From assembly GCA_012862575.1 (NCBI GenBank), contig BLSF01000005.1:682001-746000 (forward strand): 64,000 nt of DNA, in the 5' to 3' direction. A program made the translations under genes and the position numbers. The notes under the pieces were generated by a model. It was not told the origin of the DNA and searched no databases. It saw nothing but the letters and a program-made list of their open reading frames with translations. The stretch is from Parietichytrium sp. I65-24A (Eukaryota; Sar; Bigyra; Thraustochytrida; Thraustochytriidae). Each line of letters opens with the position of its first letter. Position 1 is the stretch's first letter. Below are positions 8,891 to 18,018 of this stretch, piece after piece.

Positions 8891-9249
8891 GACCTGAGTT
8901 GTTATCCAATCAAATTTGCACCTTGACGCTATATTATTGTTTACTTTTCCCTTTCTGATAATCTCTGCATTCTGTCCATGACCTTTGATTGCAGATTTGT
9001 TCAGAATTCAGAACAATCCTGCATTCGGTTCACGAACTGATGATTGTAAAAAGTCGTTTTCCTTTAAAACAAAAAAAACCTTCGTTACGAACTGACACAT
9101 TCTGAAAAACTCATTGAAAATCTATCTATAGAGAGACTGATCAAACGAGCACAAGTGGCGCAGCCGACATGTGCAAGCCCGTATTCTGTGGCGAAACGAA
9201 TAAATATTTCAAGTTTATATAAGTCTTTTCCCTCCAAGGCATCAACCAA
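8891..9249. other. Intergenic, 3' of UPF1, upstream of tRNA
   Basis: AT-rich stretch with no open frame of note. It presumably contains the UPF1 3' UTR and the upstream promoter of the permuted tRNA. Confidence 0.5.
9214..9222 (+). promoter_or_regulatory. TATA-like box upstream of the permuted tRNA
   Basis: TTTATATAA lies about 28-36 bases before the leader helix (9250). That spacing would place transcription start just ahead of the predicted pre-tRNA. An upstream TATA could matter here because the internal A and B boxes are in reversed order. Position and sequence are seen; function is inferred. Confidence 0.45.
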
Positions 9250-9266
9250 GTAGTTCAGCGTGAGAA

Positions 9267-9348
9267 CGCGGGAGACCCGGGTTCAATTCCCGGTCGTGGA
9301 ATAGTTTCTAATCCGCGATAGTATAGTGGTAAGTATCCCCGCCTGTCA
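9267..9348 (+). tRNA. Circularly permuted tRNA-Asp(GUC) gene
   Basis: The 3' half (9267-9300: position 38 C, anticodon 3' stem GCGGG, variable AGAC, T arm CCGGG-TTCAATT-CCCGG, acceptor TCGTGGA) stands before the 5' half (9312-9348: acceptor TCCGCGA, TA, D arm GTAT-AGTGGTAA-GTAT, C, anticodon stem CCCGC, loop CTGTCA). An 11-base spacer separates them. Joined 5' half to 3' half they give a complete cloverleaf: the acceptor has 7 pairs with one G-U, the anticodon stem 5 pairs and the T stem 5 pairs. The anticodon is GTC (9345-9347), and the sequence is very close to standard eukaryotic tRNA-Asp. The junction falls between positions 37 and 38, where eukaryotic tRNA introns sit. The discriminator base would be A9301, although eukaryotic tRNA-Asp normally has G73. 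No matching half lies upstream or downstream to make an ordinary gene. Confidence 0.85.
9280..9329 (+). promoter_or_regulatory. Internal Pol III B box and A box in reversed order
   Basis: A B-box-like GGTTCAATTCC (9280-9290, one mismatch to consensus) precedes a full A-box match TAGTATAGTGG (9319-9329). In a normal tRNA gene the A box comes first. The swap is a direct consequence of the permutation. Confidence 0.7.
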
Positions 9349-9362
9349 ATAGCTGGATTACA

Positions 9363-9367
9363 TTTTT
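9363..9367 (+). terminator. Pol III T5 terminator after the permuted tRNA
   Basis: A run of five T begins two bases after the trailer helix, followed by a second T5 run near 9373. This is the expected stop signal for RNA polymerase III and marks the end of the precursor. Confidence 0.65.
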
Positions 9368-9608: not shown

Positions 9609-11783
9609 CTAGGCTCGGCCCATCATCTTCTCAATGGCTTCCGCGTCCTTGCGTCGGCAAAGTGCGATGAAGAATACGATTCCAAAACAACAAAAGCCGA
9701 GCACGGAAATCACAACGATACTTATGATCAGCGACGGGAATGCATTGTCTTCCGTTGTAAGCGGTGGGTCTTGATTTAGCAACAATACGGTCGTCCCATT
9801 CACCACTTTGATCATATCTTCTTGGAGGGAGCGCTTGCCATTCTTGCTCCCACGAAGCACGCGACTGGTTTTGCTAGAGAAACCGCAAGTGTCCAGAGCG
9901 GCTTGCACCTCAATAACAAGCTCTACACTGGACTTGTCCACGAGTGACTTGAAGGCGGCCCAGTCATTGGGGCTAAATATGAACGTATCGACATTGCGTT
10001 GGTCAATCTTTTGACATTCCTCATATCCGTGCGCATCGGTCAAACTAAAGGAGCTTGTGCTCAGAGTGTATGCATTACTGTAGAGCGAATAAAATGGCTC
10101 GCAAACGTCAGACCCTGGCGCTTCGTGGCGGCAAAAGTGAGCATCTTTGTAATACGGTGATGCTTCAACGCCCATCAAGTTAATTTTATTGTCAACGGTA
10201 AACGTTCGGGACGCTCCGCCTGCTGTGACTTTGACGCTGTATATCTTGAAAGTTGTCGCGGAACTCTCATCCATCTCTGGCGACGAATACGTCATGATGA
10301 CCTTGATTTGCTCGTTCATTCCGCCGTTGTTCACTGCAGTCACCTCGACCGGGAACTCAGAATTCATTGTGACCAAATCCGCCTTAGTTGGGCAACTCGG
10401 TGCTTGAAAGACAGTGTCGGGGAATACTCCAGAAAGGTCATATGTCTCGGAGTTCTTGCCTCCGGTGCGCACGTACGACACCAATGTTTGAACCAGACCG
10501 AGATTCTCAACCGAGCAGTTCCCATCAACATCAACATCCATGAGGACACAGCCAGTGGACTTGTAGCTTACAATACACACGTTCACACCATTCTCCATTG
10601 TGCAATCGACTTTTCCGTACTTTTCAAAGGTAGCGTCTTCCAGATAAATGTGATTCTCTGGCTTCAGAATCTGAAAGTTATCGTCGGAAACTCGGACCGA
10701 GAGGTCGAATTTCAGAATAGCTTGCTCTGTATAAAGCCCGTCACATGTCTCAGCGATTTCGAAGCCGGTGATATCAAGTTTCATGTTGGAGATGTCTTCG
10801 ATAACTGTAGACCCCTCAGCGTCTACACTCACGAGCATGAAGAACTCGGTTCTACTCTCAGATACCATATTTTGATTGTCGCACTGTGGACCGACGAGCT
10901 GCGGCGCCATCTCGTCTGTTTTCATGACGAGCGGAACAGTGTAGAGAATATTTCTATCGCTAGTCTCCTCCCGGCTACTTGCGCACGCTTCAAGGTACGG
11001 AATTGAAGGGGTGTAGGTGTAGAGCGCACTGGTGCTCTTGGACCCCGACAGGTCGAGGGTGATTTGTGCGCAGTCGCCAACCTGCAGTAGAATAGTTGCG
11101 GGTAGCTCGCATTTGTTCTTGTCCGAGTCCTCAAAGTAACGAAGCTCCACCTGAATCTCCCAGGAGTTAGCATTGCCAGTGCCAGTATTCACTGGTGCAA
11201 AAAGATCAGTGACGAATAATGGGCGATTGAGGTCAAAGACAGTGACAATCTCGGTTCTATCCTTGTAAATAACCGCAGTGGAGTCTGTAGTTACCGCACC
11301 CCTAAATAAAAAGAACACCACAACGTCATCGTGCTCCGAGTAAGCAAAGGTGTCGGCAAACACGCCGTCCCAATTTACCACGCACTGCTTTGACCCAGAT
11401 CCGGCCCTCATCGCGACAGTCGCCGCGGACATGGATCGCGCTTCATTGGTCACGTAGGCACGGGACTGAGTGCAGTCAGCAACATCCTGGTCAAAGTTGA
11501 GCGAAAAATGAGTTAGTACACCTTTGATTGCCCATCCAGAAACTGAGTCATACACTGCTCCATCTCCAGATGAGCCTGACCATACCACCGCGTTTCCGGG
11601 GCTTGACTTGACGTCGATCGAATCGCTTGTGAAGAAGTCGAACTCTGTGACTGTGCAGCAGTCAGCGCACTCGCACAAGAGTTCAGAATAGGCTGGTGCG
11701 ACAGCTTTTGCCTCAAAGAACGGTGCCAGAAGGAATATAAATGTGGTGAAGAGCGTGGCTTGGAGCGCTCTATGCGGAAACAT
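9609..11783 (-). CDS. Type I membrane protein, tandem surface family member 1
   Basis: I do not recognise this 724-residue protein. It starts with a signal peptide (about 1-27) and has a large ectodomain of about 650 residues. One membrane helix lies near 680-708, rich in Ile/Val/Phe with a central CCFG, and a short cytoplasmic tail starts at RRK. The ectodomain opens with a cysteine cluster (LCECADCC). It has further blocks shared with the next two genes: NWDGVFADTFAYS, YKSTGCVLMD, NLMGVEASPYYKDAHFC and IKVVNGTT, the last a likely N-glycosylation site just before the membrane. Even cysteine spacing suggests a disulphide-bonded extracellular fold. Location at the plasma membrane or another secretory membrane is inferred from topology. 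It is the most divergent of the three and the most 3' in the array. Confidence 0.85.
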   Translation of the reverse strand: MFPHRALQATLFTTFIFLLAPFFEAKAVAPAYSELLCECADCCTVTEFDFFTSDSIDVKSSPGNAVVWSGSSGDGAVYDSVSGWAIKGVLTHFSLNFDQDVADCTQSRAYVTNEARSMSAATVAMRAGSGSKQCVVNWDGVFADTFAYSEHDDVVVFFLFRGAVTTDSTAVIYKDRTEIVTVFDLNRPLFVTDLFAPVNTGTGNANSWEIQVELRYFEDSDKNKCELPATILLQVGDCAQITLDLSGSKSTSALYTYTPSIPYLEACASSREETSDRNILYTVPLVMKTDEMAPQLVGPQCDNQNMVSESRTEFFMLVSVDAEGSTVIEDISNMKLDITGFEIAETCDGLYTEQAILKFDLSVRVSDDNFQILKPENHIYLEDATFEKYGKVDCTMENGVNVCIVSYKSTGCVLMDVDVDGNCSVENLGLVQTLVSYVRTGGKNSETYDLSGVFPDTVFQAPSCPTKADLVTMNSEFPVEVTAVNNGGMNEQIKVIMTYSSPEMDESSATTFKIYSVKVTAGGASRTFTVDNKINLMGVEASPYYKDAHFCRHEAPGSDVCEPFYSLYSNAYTLSTSSFSLTDAHGYEECQKIDQRNVDTFIFSPNDWAAFKSLVDKSSVELVIEVQAALDTCGFSSKTSRVLRGSKNGKRSLQEDMIKVVNGTTVLLLNQDPPLTTEDNAFPSLIISIVVISVLGFCCFGIVFFIALCRRKDAEAIEKMMGRA

Positions 11784-12733
11784 GATTGAGACGCTTTCTT
11801 GTGCGAGTGAGGTTGCGCGGGCTGTCAGGTTCTCCGTTCATTTGCCGGTTCTATTTCGAGTCTGCTCGGTCATGAAGCTTTCGTGTTGCGCAACCCTTTG
11901 TACCTGCCTAGATTCCCTTTGACAAGACTTGCCCACGGATCTAGGGATTCCAAACCTTTCAGCAAACCTTTCAGCGAAGCGTAAGAAGGAGTGTCTTTTC
12001 CCCCTGTACTCAGTTTTTCACGGGCCGCGCATTCAAGCGTGTGGCTATGGGGCTAACTGCGCGGAACTCACTGGCTTGATCAGTGCTCGAATTTCACCAA
12101 TTCCACCATGCGACAATGGTTACCTATGACAAACGTTGCTCAAAGGTCATTAGACTCGAGCTTTCGCTAACTTGATGTATGTGCATGTGTGCGCTGTTCA
12201 CAGGGCTTAAAGGCGTGGGCTTGGGTAGTAGTTTACCATGGTGAGAAGTCTCCAATGCGATTATGCGTGACACAGAGACCACCCACGTGCATCTAGTTGC
12301 CGTCCGTCCCCTCAAGGTGCAAGTTGGCTTCGAAGCAGCACTATTGAAAGTACTAACTAATTACTAACGTAACGGCACTGCTGAATTTTGCGAACACGCT
12401 GAAAGTTTTTAATGTTGTCTTTTGGCTTTTGCAAGCTGGTCTCTGCAGAATCTAAACAACGAATTACAACGCATCTATGTTAATCTTTGTGCTCGATTCG
12501 AAAGAAATGAAAACGAGGGAATCCTGGCTGTTTGAGGGATTAAACATAGATTGGGAGAAGCGGCGCTGGGACACTGGTTCCATTTTTGGGACATTCAAGC
12601 TGGATGATCTAAAGATCGTTGCAAAGCAACTGCTCATCAGGGTGGATGAATTCAGCTCAGAGAGAAATGTTCCTTTATCGTTGCTATTATACAGTCCGTT
12701 TTTCAAACCCCAATCTCGTTTTGCCCCTTCAGG
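11784..12733. other. Spacer between surface protein genes 1 and 2
   Basis: No supported gene. A plus-strand frame opens at ATG 12477 with about 75 protein-like residues (MKTRESWLFEG follows), but then runs antisense through the next gene, so I do not call it. The promoter of surface gene 1 must lie near 11790-12000. Confidence 0.5.
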
Positions 12734-14911
12734 TCAAGTCGCAGAATGTGGACCAAATCTTGAAGCTACAAGTTTATCCTCTATTTCCACTTCAGGCTCT
12801 CCCTGGCGTCTGCGGAAAACAAGAAACAGGAGAAGGCCAAAGCAGCACAATCCAACCGAGGAGCCAACGCTCAGCAAAACGACGAGGAGTGGGAAAGCTT
12901 GCGCAGACGCGGTGGAGGAGGGTTGGTTTAAGACGATGATTGTTGTACCATTCACCACTTTGATGGTCTCCTCTTCAAGGGCTCGTCCCTGGCTCGACAA
13001 CAGGCGGCTTGTTCGGTCTGAGGCACCGCAAGTGTCAAGTGCGGCTTGGACCTCAATGGAAAGTTCTACGCTGGAAGTCTCAACCATCGCCTGAAACGCA
13101 GACCAATCGTTTGGAGTAAACGTGAATCTATCCACATTGCGCACGTTAATGTCTTGGCAATCTTGATGACCAAGCGAATTCGTGGTGCTGAATGTGCTTG
13201 ATGCTAAAGTGTATGCATTGCTGTACACTGAGTAAAATGGCTCGCAGGTTGCAGATCCTGATGCTTCGTAACGGCAGAAATGAGCGTCCTTGTAGTATGG
13301 AGACGCCTCCACACCCATTAGATTGATCTTGCTTTCAACGGTGAATATACGCGACACGTCGCCAGCAGTTACCCGCACGCTGAAAATCTTGAATGTAGTC
13401 GCGGTGTTTGCGTCCATGTCTTGCGATGAAAACGTCATTTCTACGTTGATGGGATCGTTCATCCCGCCTTGGTTTTCAGCGGTGACTACGACCGGGAACT
13501 CCGCGTTGAAGGTGACTGTGTCTGCCTTCGTTGGGCATGTGTCAGCAGCAAACACGGTGTTTGGAAACGCTCCCGCAAAGTCGTATCCCTCAGATGCATC
13601 GCCGTCGGTGCGCACATAATACACGGAGGTCTTGGCAAGTCCAAGATTTTCCACGGTGCAAGTACCGTCACTACTTGCGTCCATCAACACACAACCTGTA
13701 GATTTGTAGCTCACCTCACAGGTATACACCCCACTCTCATGCTGACAGAGAGCATCTCCCTCACGCTGAAAAGTGGCATCTTCCAGATAGATAAATTCTT
13801 CTGTCTGGAGACTCTCAAAATCTTCGTCGGAGAGCTTGACTTGCAATGTGAAGCTCAGCAATGCTTGCTCTGTAAACAGTCCATCACAGGGCTCTGCGAT
13901 AGCAAAGTCTTGAATGCTAAACTTCATGTTGGATACATCGCTCACAGCAGTGGAACCATCCACGTTCACGTCCACGGTCATGTAAAACTCCGTACTCTCT
14001 TCGTAGACCATGTTCCTCGCAATACAAGCTGGGCCGATCAAAGAAGTCTTCTCATCGCTCGTAAGCGTCAGTGGCACAGTGTACAGTATTTTACCATCTG
14101 CGGTCTCTTCACGAGCGCTTGCGCAGCCTTCCAAATATGATATTGAAGGAGTATGTGTGAAAAGAGAGGAAGACGAGTCGGACTCTGAGGAGACAAGCTC
14201 CACGCTTTCGCATTCTCCGACCATTACATAAACTGATGGTGGGAGGGCGCACTCTTGTTGATCGGTGCTTTCAAAATAGCGAAGCTGAACCTGCAACTCC
14301 CAGTCTTGACCAGTTTTGACGGGCGCGAACACGTCAGTGACGAACAGAGGTCGACTCATATCGTAGATTGTGACGATCTCAGTCTTGTCTTTGTTGACTA
14401 CAACGCTACTGTCCGAAGCAATTACATTGCGAAACAAGAAGAAGACCACAACATCGTCATAGTCAGAGTACGCGAATGTGTCTTGAAATTCACCGTCCCA
14501 GTTTACGACGCATTGGCGGGATCCAGCTCCAGCGACCATGGAAACTTGAACAGGTGTCATTGTCTGCGCTCGATTCGTCACGTACGCATGAGACTGCGTG
14601 CAGTTCAAAACGTTCGTGTCAAGAAATGTGAGCGCATAGTGAGTAAGAAGTCCATCGAGCTCCCACGCAATTACCGAATCGTAGTCGACGTTGTCACCAT
14701 TTTTGCCAACCCAGGTGACCTTATCCCCAGGCCCGCTCTTCACGTCGAAGGCGTCGGTCGAGGCATAATCGAGTTCGGATATTGCGCAACAATCTGTACA
14801 CTCGCAAAGCAAATCAGAAAGAGTCTCCGAGCTGAGGCTGGCTCGAAGCAATGGCGCCCCCAACGCCAGGCCCGCGGAGAGCAAAGCAGCACCAACCACG
14901 TCGCGAAGCAT
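12734..14911 (-). CDS. Type I membrane protein, tandem surface family member 2
   Basis: Second copy of the family, 725 residues from ATG 14911. The frame extends 48 codons further upstream, but ATG 14911 reproduces the hydrophobic signal sequence of copy 3 (MLRDVVGAALLSAGLALGAP against MFRDIVGAALLTAGLSLAAP), so I chose it. The cysteine opening is LCECTDCC. Other landmarks are SYKSTGCVLMD, NLMGVEASPYYKDAHFCR, EPFYSVYSNAYT, IKVVNGTT, a membrane helix at about 671-699 with GLCCFG, and a basic-acidic tail beginning RRR. Copies 2 and 3 are visibly closer to each other than to copy 1, especially in signal peptide and membrane helix. Same strand and spacing of roughly 0.9 kb point to tandem duplication. 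Function unknown. Confidence 0.85.
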   Translation of the reverse strand: MLRDVVGAALLSAGLALGAPLLRASLSSETLSDLLCECTDCCAISELDYASTDAFDVKSGPGDKVTWVGKNGDNVDYDSVIAWELDGLLTHYALTFLDTNVLNCTQSHAYVTNRAQTMTPVQVSMVAGAGSRQCVVNWDGEFQDTFAYSDYDDVVVFFLFRNVIASDSSVVVNKDKTEIVTIYDMSRPLFVTDVFAPVKTGQDWELQVQLRYFESTDQQECALPPSVYVMVGECESVELVSSESDSSSSLFTHTPSISYLEGCASAREETADGKILYTVPLTLTSDEKTSLIGPACIARNMVYEESTEFYMTVDVNVDGSTAVSDVSNMKFSIQDFAIAEPCDGLFTEQALLSFTLQVKLSDEDFESLQTEEFIYLEDATFQREGDALCQHESGVYTCEVSYKSTGCVLMDASSDGTCTVENLGLAKTSVYYVRTDGDASEGYDFAGAFPNTVFAADTCPTKADTVTFNAEFPVVVTAENQGGMNDPINVEMTFSSQDMDANTATTFKIFSVRVTAGDVSRIFTVESKINLMGVEASPYYKDAHFCRYEASGSATCEPFYSVYSNAYTLASSTFSTTNSLGHQDCQDINVRNVDRFTFTPNDWSAFQAMVETSSVELSIEVQAALDTCGASDRTSRLLSSQGRALEEETIKVVNGTTIIVLNQPSSTASAQAFPLLVVLLSVGSSVGLCCFGLLLFLVFRRRQGEPEVEIEDKLVASRFGPHSAT

Positions 14912-15828
14912 TTCATCAAACGCCTCGCCCCCAAGCTCCTCAACTCCTCGTCCCGTGCTCCAGTCTCCTCGAGCGACCCAACTCTGTCGCCTTTCCGAGT
15001 TTCGGATCCTCCACAACTTGAAATCGGGTATTGAAAACCGCTTCGGCGAAGGCAATCGATGATGGCAATCATCACTTCAGCGCTTGTAAGGCAGCTTCGT
15101 TAAACCCATTCTCAGTGCCGCCACTTAAACTAATCGTAGATCATAAATTGTATTGACAATAGATCAGTTTTCGTTCTGGCCAAGTGAACGATATCCGGCA
15201 ATTGCAAGCTGAAGAGGAATCCTGAGATCTGTGGCTTTAGCTCCGCGGCACACAATCAGTTCAGATGTTCAAACTTCAACAATGGGACATCTTATTCTAT
15301 TCCTCCCTATCATTTTCACTATCAGTTCCGGTAGGTGATGATCATAAGTTTTAATTTATCCGGTAAATCGGATAAATGGATCCAATTCAACTATAGAAAT
15401 GTATCGCAGAATCAATGAGCAGCCCTAGTCTTTCGATGAGGGAGAGAAGACTTTGGGAGACACGAGATTTGGAAGACTCGAAGGATCGATGTTTGGCAAA
15501 TGCGCGTCGTACTTGACACCTTCGAGCAAAGAGTGCACAGACAGTCGTACATCGCAAAACCGTGTTTCCCTTTCGACTTCATGTCGTATACGTGTACATT
15601 GTATTTATGCAAGTTGACGCGGACTCAAAAGCAGAACAGCTATTACATCGCAGAATGCTTCCCTTTCTACGCTATCGTGCACATTGAAGACAGCCCAAAA
15701 TACTTTGCTTATCTAACTGTAGAAGATAACTTGTGTAAAGATCTACTCTATTCTATCTATTGGAACATTGCGACACATGGTTGCAAAGGAGAAAACTCCG
15801 ACTGACTGTGAGGAGCAAGAACGCAGCT
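14912..15828. other. Spacer between surface protein genes 2 and 3
   Basis: No supported gene. An ATG frame at 15500-15805 (101 codons) has no recognisable features and ends inside the 3' flank of copy 3. The promoter of copy 2 lies within this stretch. Confidence 0.5.
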
Positions 15829-18018
15829 TTAGTGGTAGTCGACTGGGTTGTGATGAGCAAGCTTGTCGGAGCGCTCGACCTCGCGGTCGTCCTTACGGCG
15901 GCGGACCACGAGGAAGACGAGGAGACCAAAGCAGCAAACACCGACCGAAGATCCTACACTGACAAGAACGATGAGGAGTGGGAACACAGCGTCATTGCTA
16001 ACTGTGGTTGGCGCGGTTGTGATAACAACGACAGTGGTGCCGTTTACAACCTTAATGGTTTCTTCAAGAGCGCGGTCACTGCTTGCTAGAAGGCGGGAGC
16101 CAGTCTTATCAGACGAACCGCAAGTATCGAGGGCCGCATTCACTTCAATAGTCAGCTCGACATTAGTGCTGTCCACCAGTGACTCGAACGCAGACCAGTC
16201 ATTTGGTGTGAAAGTGAACCTGTCGATGTTGCGGGTGTTAATTTCTTGGCAGCTCTCATGACCAACAGCATTGGTCGAAGAGAAGGAAGCGGAACTCGTT
16301 GTGTAATCATTGCTGTAGAGCGAGTAGAATGGCTCACAAGAGCTGGCACCATCAGCCTCGTAGCGGCAAAAGTGAGCGTCCTTGTAGTATGGCGAAGCTT
16401 CCACGCCCATCAAGTTGATCTTGCTGTCCACAGTAAAGACACGCGAAACATCCCCTGCGATTACCTTCACGCTGTAAATCTTGAACGTAGTGGCAACGTC
16501 CGCTCCCATCTCTGCGTCTTCAAACTTCATCTGAACGTGAATTGGCTCGTTCATGCCACCCTCGTTCTCCGCGCTTACGACGACAGGAAACTCTGTGTTG
16601 AAGGTGACTGTACCAGCCTTGGTTGGGCATGCATCTTCGGCGAACTGAGTATCTGGGAAAGCTCCAGAGAAGTCGTATGTCTCGGAGTTATCGCTGGTGC
16701 GCACATAGTAGACAGAGGTTTGGACCAGTCCCAGGTTCGACACGGCGCAAGTGCCATCATCATTCGCGTCCATGAGCACGCATCCGGTGGACTTGTAGAG
16801 AACATCACAAGTGTACACTCCGTCTGCTAGAGTGCAGTCCGGCTCCTCCTCTTGCTGGAATGTAGCATCCTCCAGGTAGATGAATTCGCTTGGCTCAAGA
16901 TCTTGGAAGTCGGCATCTGAAACCTTGACCTGCAAAACGAACTCGAGAACAGCCTGTTCGGTGAAGAGCCCATCACATTTCTCAGAGATGTCGAATTCCT
17001 GAATGTCGAACTTCATGTTCGAGATGCCGCTCACTGTAGTACTACCGTCGACATTGATGTCCACAGTCATGTAGAACTCTGTGGAATCCTCGTATACCAT
17101 GTCGCGGACGTCGCAATCAGGACCGGTCAACTGTGGAATCATAATTGCTGTGTCCATCGTAAGTGGCAAAGTGTAGAGGATCTGTCCGTTTGTCTCCTCA
17201 CGGCTGCTTGCACAACCCTCAAGGTATGGGATCGTGGGGGTGTGGGTGTACAGCGCAGACGTCGAACCGGTACTCACGGTGTTAGAGAGGTCCAATGTGA
17301 TTGGTTCGCAGTCGCCGACGTGTAGAATCAGAGATGAAGGGAGGGCACACTCCGCCGCGTCGGTCGACTCGAAGTAGCGAAGCTGAACCTGGAGTTGCCA
17401 CTCTTGGTCGCTGGCGGTGCCAACGTTGACTGGCGTGAACACATCAGTCACGAAGGATGGCCGGTTCTGGTCAAAGATAGTGACGATCTCTGTATCGTCT
17501 TCGTAGATAGTCACACTGCCGTCCGTGGACGCCACATTCTTGAGGAGAAAGAACACCACGATGTCGTCGTAGTTGGAGTATGCGAAGGTGTCCTCGAAGG
17601 CACCCTCCCACGTCACAATGCATTGCTTTGAACCTTGTCCAGCTTCCATCGCCACTTTCGTTGGCGTCATTGTCCCCGCCTCGTTGTTCACGAAAGCGAA
17701 GGACTCGTCACAGTTTATCACGTCATCGTCAAAGTTGAGGGTGAATTGAGTCAACACCCCTGAAACGTCCCATGCAATGACGGAATCGTAGTCGACGTTG
17801 TCACCATTGTTGCCAGCCCAGGTGACCTCATCCCCAGGCCCACTCTTCACGCCCAAGCTGTCGCTCGAGGCATGGTCGAGTTCTTCAACAGTACAGCAGT
17901 CATTGCAATCGCAAAGTAATTGCGAAAGGGTTGGGGCATCAAGAGTTGCTCGAAGGGAAGGGGCTGCAAGTGACAGACCTGCAGTGAGCAGCGCCGCACC
18001 AACAATGTCGCGAAACAT
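15829..18018 (-). CDS. Type I membrane protein, tandem surface family member 3
   Basis: Third copy, 729 residues from ATG 18018. It has a signal peptide at about 1-19 and the cysteine opening LCDCNDCC. The ectodomain carries the same ordered blocks as the other copies: a DDDV/I aspartate patch, DTFAYSNYDDIVVFFLL, YFESTDAAECALPSS, YKSTGCVLMDANDDG, NLMGVEASPYYKDAHFC and IKVVNGTT. The membrane helix is at about 677-705 with GVCCFG, and the tail starts RRRKDD. It is the 5'-most copy and lies 1.6 kb before the LSD1-like gene. Repeated acidic motifs could bind calcium, but no canonical EF-hand or cadherin motif is visible. A role in adhesion or sensing would be speculation. Confidence 0.85.
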   Translation of the reverse strand: MFRDIVGAALLTAGLSLAAPSLRATLDAPTLSQLLCDCNDCCTVEELDHASSDSLGVKSGPGDEVTWAGNNGDNVDYDSVIAWDVSGVLTQFTLNFDDDVINCDESFAFVNNEAGTMTPTKVAMEAGQGSKQCIVTWEGAFEDTFAYSNYDDIVVFFLLKNVASTDGSVTIYEDDTEIVTIFDQNRPSFVTDVFTPVNVGTASDQEWQLQVQLRYFESTDAAECALPSSLILHVGDCEPITLDLSNTVSTGSTSALYTHTPTIPYLEGCASSREETNGQILYTLPLTMDTAIMIPQLTGPDCDVRDMVYEDSTEFYMTVDINVDGSTTVSGISNMKFDIQEFDISEKCDGLFTEQAVLEFVLQVKVSDADFQDLEPSEFIYLEDATFQQEEEPDCTLADGVYTCDVLYKSTGCVLMDANDDGTCAVSNLGLVQTSVYYVRTSDNSETYDFSGAFPDTQFAEDACPTKAGTVTFNTEFPVVVSAENEGGMNEPIHVQMKFEDAEMGADVATTFKIYSVKVIAGDVSRVFTVDSKINLMGVEASPYYKDAHFCRYEADGASSCEPFYSLYSNDYTTSSASFSSTNAVGHESCQEINTRNIDRFTFTPNDWSAFESLVDSTNVELTIEVNAALDTCGSSDKTGSRLLASSDRALEETIKVVNGTTVVVITTAPTTVSNDAVFPLLIVLVSVGSSVGVCCFGLLVFLVVRRRKDDREVERSDKLAHHNPVDYH

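Follow-up and report, generated by a model that had tools for sequence, protein, structure and literature searches.

The window analysed here, a continuous stretch of 64,000 nucleotides (C5:682001-746000) from a genome assembly of 42.5 Mb in 172 contigs, contains at 9267-9348 of the forward strand a circularly permuted tRNA-Asp(GUC) gene of type II (junction 37/38). It is one of at least nine such units in the assembly which, to judge from their sequences, are very probably nuclear genes that are functional and encode the cytosolic tRNA-Asp(GUC), all circularly permuted at 37/38. The arrangement can be read directly from the DNA: the 3' half of the tRNA (positions 38-72), at 9267-9300 (+), comes before the 5' half (positions 1-37, with the anticodon GUC), at 9312-9348 (+), and between the two lies a spacer of 11 bases, 9301-9311 (+), the first of which, A9301, would act as the discriminator position 73, the remainder being predicted to form a mini-hairpin of 3 bp on the acceptor stem. 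When the halves are rejoined as 1-37 + 38-73, inspection shows an acceptor stem of 7 pairs (one of them G-U), an anticodon stem of 5 and a T stem of 5. The initial annotation of this DNA, which had placed the 3' half of a tRNA-Asp 11 bases upstream of its 5' half and had held that swapping them gives a full cloverleaf of 7, 5 and 5 pairs close to standard tRNA-Asp, stands in both respects, with the stems and the anticodon GUC confirmed. The outer limits that it gave for the permuted gene, 9250-9367, fall exactly where the leader arm of a predicted splice-junction helix begins (leader arm 9250-9259, trailer arm 9352-9361, both +) and where a T-run at 9363-9367 (+), the likely RNA polymerase III terminator, ends. 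A candidate upstream element (CAACCAAGTAGT here), found with a leave-one-out motif and agreeing with a stricter pattern with one mismatch, occupies 9243-9254 (+), and a TATA-like stretch, a feature present in the leaders of only two of the nine copies, lies upstream at 9216-9221 (+).

This reading is supported by a covariance model, R2, which was built from 14 ordinary tRNAs of the genome, with Asp excluded, that had been artificially permuted at 37/38 and given invented spacers. The structure of this blind model comprises the acceptor, T and D stems only; the anticodon stem was left out and therefore provides an independent check. Exactly one match at E<=10 was obtained in the 64-kb window, at 9266-9348, with 55.9 bits and an E-value of 2.9e-17 (rough, the calibration being short), and the anticodon stem, absent from the structure of the model, fits too. 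Each tRNA-Asp half is present once in the window, where ARAGORN reports no tRNA genes and Rfam yields no matches at the gathering cut-off. Over 34 sequences of the genome (172,460 bases), R2 produced 118 matches at E<=1, nine of which, at 48.4-55.9 bits, are Asp units. The Asp units are outscored by the six top matches, at 58.6-67.1 bits, which are junctions of adjacent ordinary tRNAs, and the remaining 103 matches do not exceed 43.6 bits, many of them lying, by eye, at ordinary or mitochondrial tRNA genes. Viral contigs yielded nothing in an exact-pattern scan.

DNA searches of the assembly recovered at least nine permuted units, one on C5 (in the window), three on C14 (L009) and five on C16 (L010). 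In every one of the nine, the 3' half precedes the 5' half on the same strand, and neither the 3' half (34 bases) nor the 5' half (37 bases) varies among the copies. The mean pairwise identity of the leaders (20 bases before the 3' half, compared ungapped, position by position) is 0.31, with a range of 5-75%, and that of the trailers (12 bases after the 5' half, also ungapped) is 0.34, with a range of 8-75%; the corresponding mean for the spacers is 0.75. All but one of the nine spacers are 11 bases long, the exception having 12; none contains a run of four T, and seven of the nine are predicted to form the mini-hairpin, 3 bp on the acceptor stem. In each copy, the first T-run (at least four) begins 12-22 bases downstream of the 5' half. 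The case of a scrambled one-off remnant, to which the initial annotation had drawn attention, was looked for, and what was found instead is nine copies with identical halves; the permuted reading is thus borne out by a family of at least nine members that combine identical halves, cognate leader-trailer pairing, T-runs and upstream elements.

The cognate pairing was assessed by computing duplex energies for every leader (32 bases) with every trailer (cut at the T-run). The mean energy is -14.6 kcal/mol for cognate versus -8.2 kcal/mol for non-cognate combinations, and the true assignment of leaders to trailers ranks first of 362,880, with a sum of -131.5 against -130.4 for the next best (1.1 kcal/mol worse), although, the copies being related, this permutation test is not equivalent to nine independent cases. 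The own trailer is the best partner for six of the nine leaders (rows) and the own leader for seven of the nine trailers (columns); C16:3126 and C16:4045 rank second by both row and column, and C14:3379 second by row. Shuffled leaders and trailers equal the cognate energy in 0-4.2% of 500 trials, the maximum being reached at C16:3126. In the window, the predicted helix between 9250-9259 and 9352-9361 consists of 10 pairs, two of them G-U, with an energy of -14.7 kcal/mol, and many of the junction helices of the nine copies differ greatly in sequence. The predicted folds present a 37/38 junction with a leader-trailer helix of the bulge-helix-bulge type, a class that is read here from the helix and not from a strict hBHBh' score. 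Eukaryotic splicing endonucleases use a pair between the pyrimidine at position 32 and a purine at -3; a G is found at -3 in seven of the nine leaders, which fits this rule, and some of the predicted folds pair that G with the anticodon.

The leaders share a further feature. A motif resembling CAACCAAGTGGT is present in all nine permuted leaders, its first base lying 22-31 bases ahead of the 3' half; it was first aligned by hand, the best site under leave-one-out coincides with the hand-chosen one in all nine cases, and between 0 and 2.3% of random 60-mers match the score of the leader motif in the leave-one-out profiles. With the leader motif profile, 19 of 50 upstream stretches of ordinary tRNAs score below 0.02. 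Of the 49 ordinary nuclear tRNA genes, 19, representing 13 of 15 isoacceptors, have a match to A[AC]CANNTGG[TC] (fifth base not T) in the 60 bases that precede them, whereas the frequency of this pattern in the window predicts ~0.003 per gene; in the permuted leaders the pattern is exact in three, has one mismatch in five and two mismatches in one. In these 19 of the 49 ordinary tRNA genes (for example, L051, L059, L061 and L045), the distance from the start of the palindrome-like ACCANNTGGT to the gene is 11-29 bases, and ACCANNTGGT is likely to be a lineage-specific tRNA promoter element; the ACCANNTGGT-like element that is common to the permuted leaders and the ordinary tRNA genes is read as a putative general upstream element of the tRNA genes in this genome. 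That the leaders harbor a displaced A box was considered and rejected: the profile is weak (below p 0.05 in three of nine), and because the same motif precedes ordinary tRNA genes, it does not appear to be a displaced A box. By inspection of the predicted folds, part of the upstream element in several copies also supplies the leader strand of the helix at the junction. The genome encodes a Tau95 (TFIIIC) domain. In the available text of PMC3978253, the reversed A and B boxes of permuted genes are called unsuitable for TFIIIC binding, and upstream promoters are suggested.

So where does the cytosolic tRNA-Asp come from? An ordinary tRNA-Asp(GUC), the counterpart that the initial annotation had asked to look for, was sought across the genome with the joined 72-base sequence, and this query returned nine 5' halves and nine 3' halves, all separate, with zero contiguous matches, that is, no full-length copy of this sequence. 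Given that the copies of other multi-copy nuclear tRNAs are identical or nearly so (seven copies for Asn, eight for Glu), one would expect any ordinary gene for Asp to be similar to the permuted sequence. The sole tRNA-Asp in ordinary order that was seen is mitochondrial (L042). An RF00005 scan, in which 63 of 1347 candidates were scored, is without a nuclear Asp but is also without Phe, Ser, Pro and Lys, and plant tRNA-Asp queries recovered none of the nine known copies. With yeast tRNA queries, the Phe, Ser and Pro matches run unbroken across 37/38, the Lys match comes in two pieces in normal order, and the initiator Met, His, Gly and Tyr queries give no matches; the genome's own Gly tRNA, when used as a query, matches only itself. 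Taken at the level of sequence, these observations suggest that cytosolic Asp tRNA comes mainly or entirely from the nine permuted genes, and that they are the sole supply is likely; it is possible that a diverged ordinary tRNA-Asp gene exists besides them.

Could the permuted look be deceptive? When long introns are allowed, ARAGORN makes two calls on C14 and four on C16, one of them as Ser, in which the arrays would be ordinary tRNA-Asp genes with long introns (~100-325 bases) and the permutation an artefact of tandem repetition, and the fact that adjacent pairs of ordinary tRNAs match the permuted model as well, furnishing the six matches at 58.6-67.1 bits, points in the same direction. However, the window copy is solitary, with no other half found on C5 and a single model match in the window; the T-runs at +12 to +22 after the 5' halves should halt RNA polymerase III before the next 3' half is reached; and in all six neighbour pairs the permuted reading gives a stronger duplex than the intron reading does. 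We regard this reading as very improbable, and the candidate of a tandem intron-containing tRNA gene was rejected on the strength of the lone window copy and of the poorer pairing of the intron ends in six of six.

It is about equally hard to believe that the units are non-functional tRNA debris, such as insertions copied from a circular tRNA precursor, even if, in the accessible part of PMC3978253, such genes are proposed to have arisen when permuted or circular precursors were reverse-transcribed: the halves are 100% identical in nine copies whereas the flanks have diverged, cognate pairing has been maintained through sequence change, the T-runs and the upstream element are retained, and no ordinary gene that could take over was found with the joined 72-base query. 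The better overall match of leader and trailer within units than between them, along with a spacer that is short and fairly conserved (0.75), as folding in cis predicts, speaks against a scheme in which the halves are processed separately and joined in trans between transcripts, like split tRNAs, without a circle in cis; such joining would be chemically feasible inasmuch as each transcript should carry both halves, but its probability appears to be minute.

For genes that are genuinely permuted, a pathway can be proposed that accommodates these features. RNA polymerase III would initiate near the upstream element and transcribe the 3' half, the spacer and the 5' half before terminating at the T-run. 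Base pairing between leader and trailer would create, with the anticodon stem, a junction like that of an intron (a relaxed bulge-helix-bulge). There the tRNA splicing endonuclease would cleave on the 3' side of 37 and on the 5' side of 38, and a ligase would seal 37 to 38, which would produce a circle whose acceptor stem is closed by the spacer; RNase P and tRNase Z would then excise the spacer, to be followed by addition of CCA. The transcription, the RNA circle, the acting enzymes and the sole supply are what we infer. As for the machinery, PF01974 (tRNA splicing endonuclease domain) gives three matches at two places, one over the cut-off at each, and the two tRNA-Lys(CUU) genes L084 and L085 (C30) are read as interrupted at 37/38 by introns of 25 and 26 bases, so that this genome seems to make use of splicing there. 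The RtcB ligase has no match in the genome (control positive), and the search for PF09511 (T4-type ligase domain) returned no matches, its control being likewise empty. All things considered, there is a fair likelihood that all cytosolic Asp tRNA of this probable heterotrophic stramenopile derives from the nine permuted genes, with every aspartate codon dependent on an RNA circle, and that the leader element acts as a promoter and, in several copies, as a helix arm as well.

Comparison with the known permuted tRNA genes, as far as these are covered by the published excerpts available, reveals both common and distinct features. The 34 permuted genes in Table 1 of PMC3978253 come from six algae and one archaeon; there is none for Asp and none from a stramenopile, and the initial annotation, too, knew of no such gene in an organism of this kind. 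The spacers of the known genes span 1-74 bases (PMC3978253). The closest resemblance is to the genes of the prasinophytes (Ostreococcus, Micromonas) and of the Bigelowiella nucleomorph, which according to the same excerpts share with the present ones the 37/38 junction (in all but one listed gene) and a short spacer, and the type II members of which mostly lack an added intron and have a relaxed (hBH) junction in the anticodon loop, as here (PMC3978253). In contrast to the nine clustered copies with identical halves described here, however, those genes include none for Asp and number at most two per anticodon per species (PMC3978253), and their hosts are algal whereas the present host is probably not an alga. 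A photosystem reaction-centre gene (PF00124) was not found in the genome (control positive). With Cyanidioschyzon merolae, six of whose eleven genes are type II, the shared traits are the gene order and the downstream T-stretch, and a circular intermediate has been reported for the permuted tRNAs of that alga; its junctions, however, fall at four positions, compared to 37/38 in nine of nine here, and it is described as lacking TFC1 and TFC3 homologs whereas the Tau95 (TFIIIC) domain is present here (all from the available portion of PMC3978253). The green alga Auxenochlorella likewise has the permuted order, which came to light once the set from an ordinary tRNA scan had proved incomplete (PMC12633428, in part), and so does Thermofilum pendens, which differs, by the excerpted account in PMC3978253, in being an archaeon with the junction at 59/60, encoded CCA and extra introns. 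The nucleomorph of Amorphochlora amoebiformis is said in the accessible text of PMC4494063 to have permuted genes and those of two Lotharella to have none, and a Cyanidiophyceae paper of 2026 (PMC13353863) mentions permuted tRNA, in the part available, among its references only. The open-licence literature searched, as represented by its accessible text, yielded no report of permuted tRNA in thraustochytrids, labyrinthulomycetes or stramenopiles, and two thraustochytrid genome papers that used tRNAscan-SE present, in their available text, neither a permuted tRNA nor a table by amino acid (PMC6923395, PMC7073664). Thus, the kind of gene is already known, and it is the lineage, the amino acid, the nine copies and the shared upstream element that appear to be new within the literature searched.

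Several other observations on this genome deserve mention. Position 73 would be A in the tRNA-Asp of the window (9301) and in the other eight copies; G73 is the usual Asp identity base in eukaryotes, and the nuclear Asn, Glu and Gln tRNA genes of this genome likewise end in A. A nuclear tRNA-Val(GAC) is present in at least four copies (L052 452-621, L053 498-943); eukaryotes usually read such Val codons with AAC. Further tRNA-Lys copies on C30, detected with the yeast query, are split in the same way as L084 and L085. In the window itself, three tandem paralogous genes encoding 724-773 aa are located at 9609-11783, 12734-15055 and 15829-18018 (-); by eye, their products (9609-18018, -) are likely to have a signal peptide and a C-terminal membrane segment, and a Pfam scan of the first paralog alone (9609-11783, -) gave no match.

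Contig C141 (39,303 bases, of which 36,000 were analysed, 5,123 of those being N) is mitochondrial. According to ARAGORN, its tRNAs cover 18 amino acids and include Leu(CAA) and Leu(UAG) without Leu(UAA), and by eye its ORFs resemble rpl2, tatC, nad5 and others. Among seven genes of C141 in which TTA codons were counted, five have none and two have one each. Of 25 long open frames, 15 (one of them cox1-like) are free of TTA, four of these lying on the strand opposite recognisable genes, and ten contain one to four TTA, many of which are near the ends of the frames, the gene ends being approximate. The mitogenome of Schizochytrium TIO1101 is listed with tatC and with TAA, TGA or TTA as stops in the excerpt available (PMC7799850); this use of TTA is familiar from thraustochytrid mitochondria, and C141 largely avoids TTA, which suggests a thraustochytrid. 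With no PF00124 match in the genome, the host is probably a labyrinthulomycete that does not photosynthesize, most likely from among the thraustochytrids. At L042 2777-5074 and 5917-7175 (C141), stretches of frames that by eye resemble nad5 and rpl5 are repeated, and the contig contains runs of N, possibly an assembly error. A tRNA-Ala(UGC) at L058 307-378 on C67, a 220-kb contig, is identical to the mitochondrial copy at L042 c7946-8017; the C67 copy probably reflects either an insertion of mitochondrial DNA into the nuclear genome or a chimeric assembly.

What would the existence of these genes imply? An immediate practical consequence is that standard tRNA searches can overlook tRNA-Asp, or read it wrongly, in genomes of this kind. 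Furthermore, transcription in spite of reversed A and B boxes becomes testable, the permuted genes being preceded by an element of the sort found in front of ordinary tRNA genes, and the nine diverged helices offer natural covariation data on what maintains the junction helix. Permuted tRNA genes have so far been known, in the literature accessible here, from red and green algae, from chlorarachniophyte nucleomorphs, which are remnants of green algae, and from one archaeon. If the present reading is true, a family of nine copies that seems to provide an essential tRNA in a heterotroph outside these lineages would mean that the permuted arrangement can bear a main housekeeping load and that it arose again.
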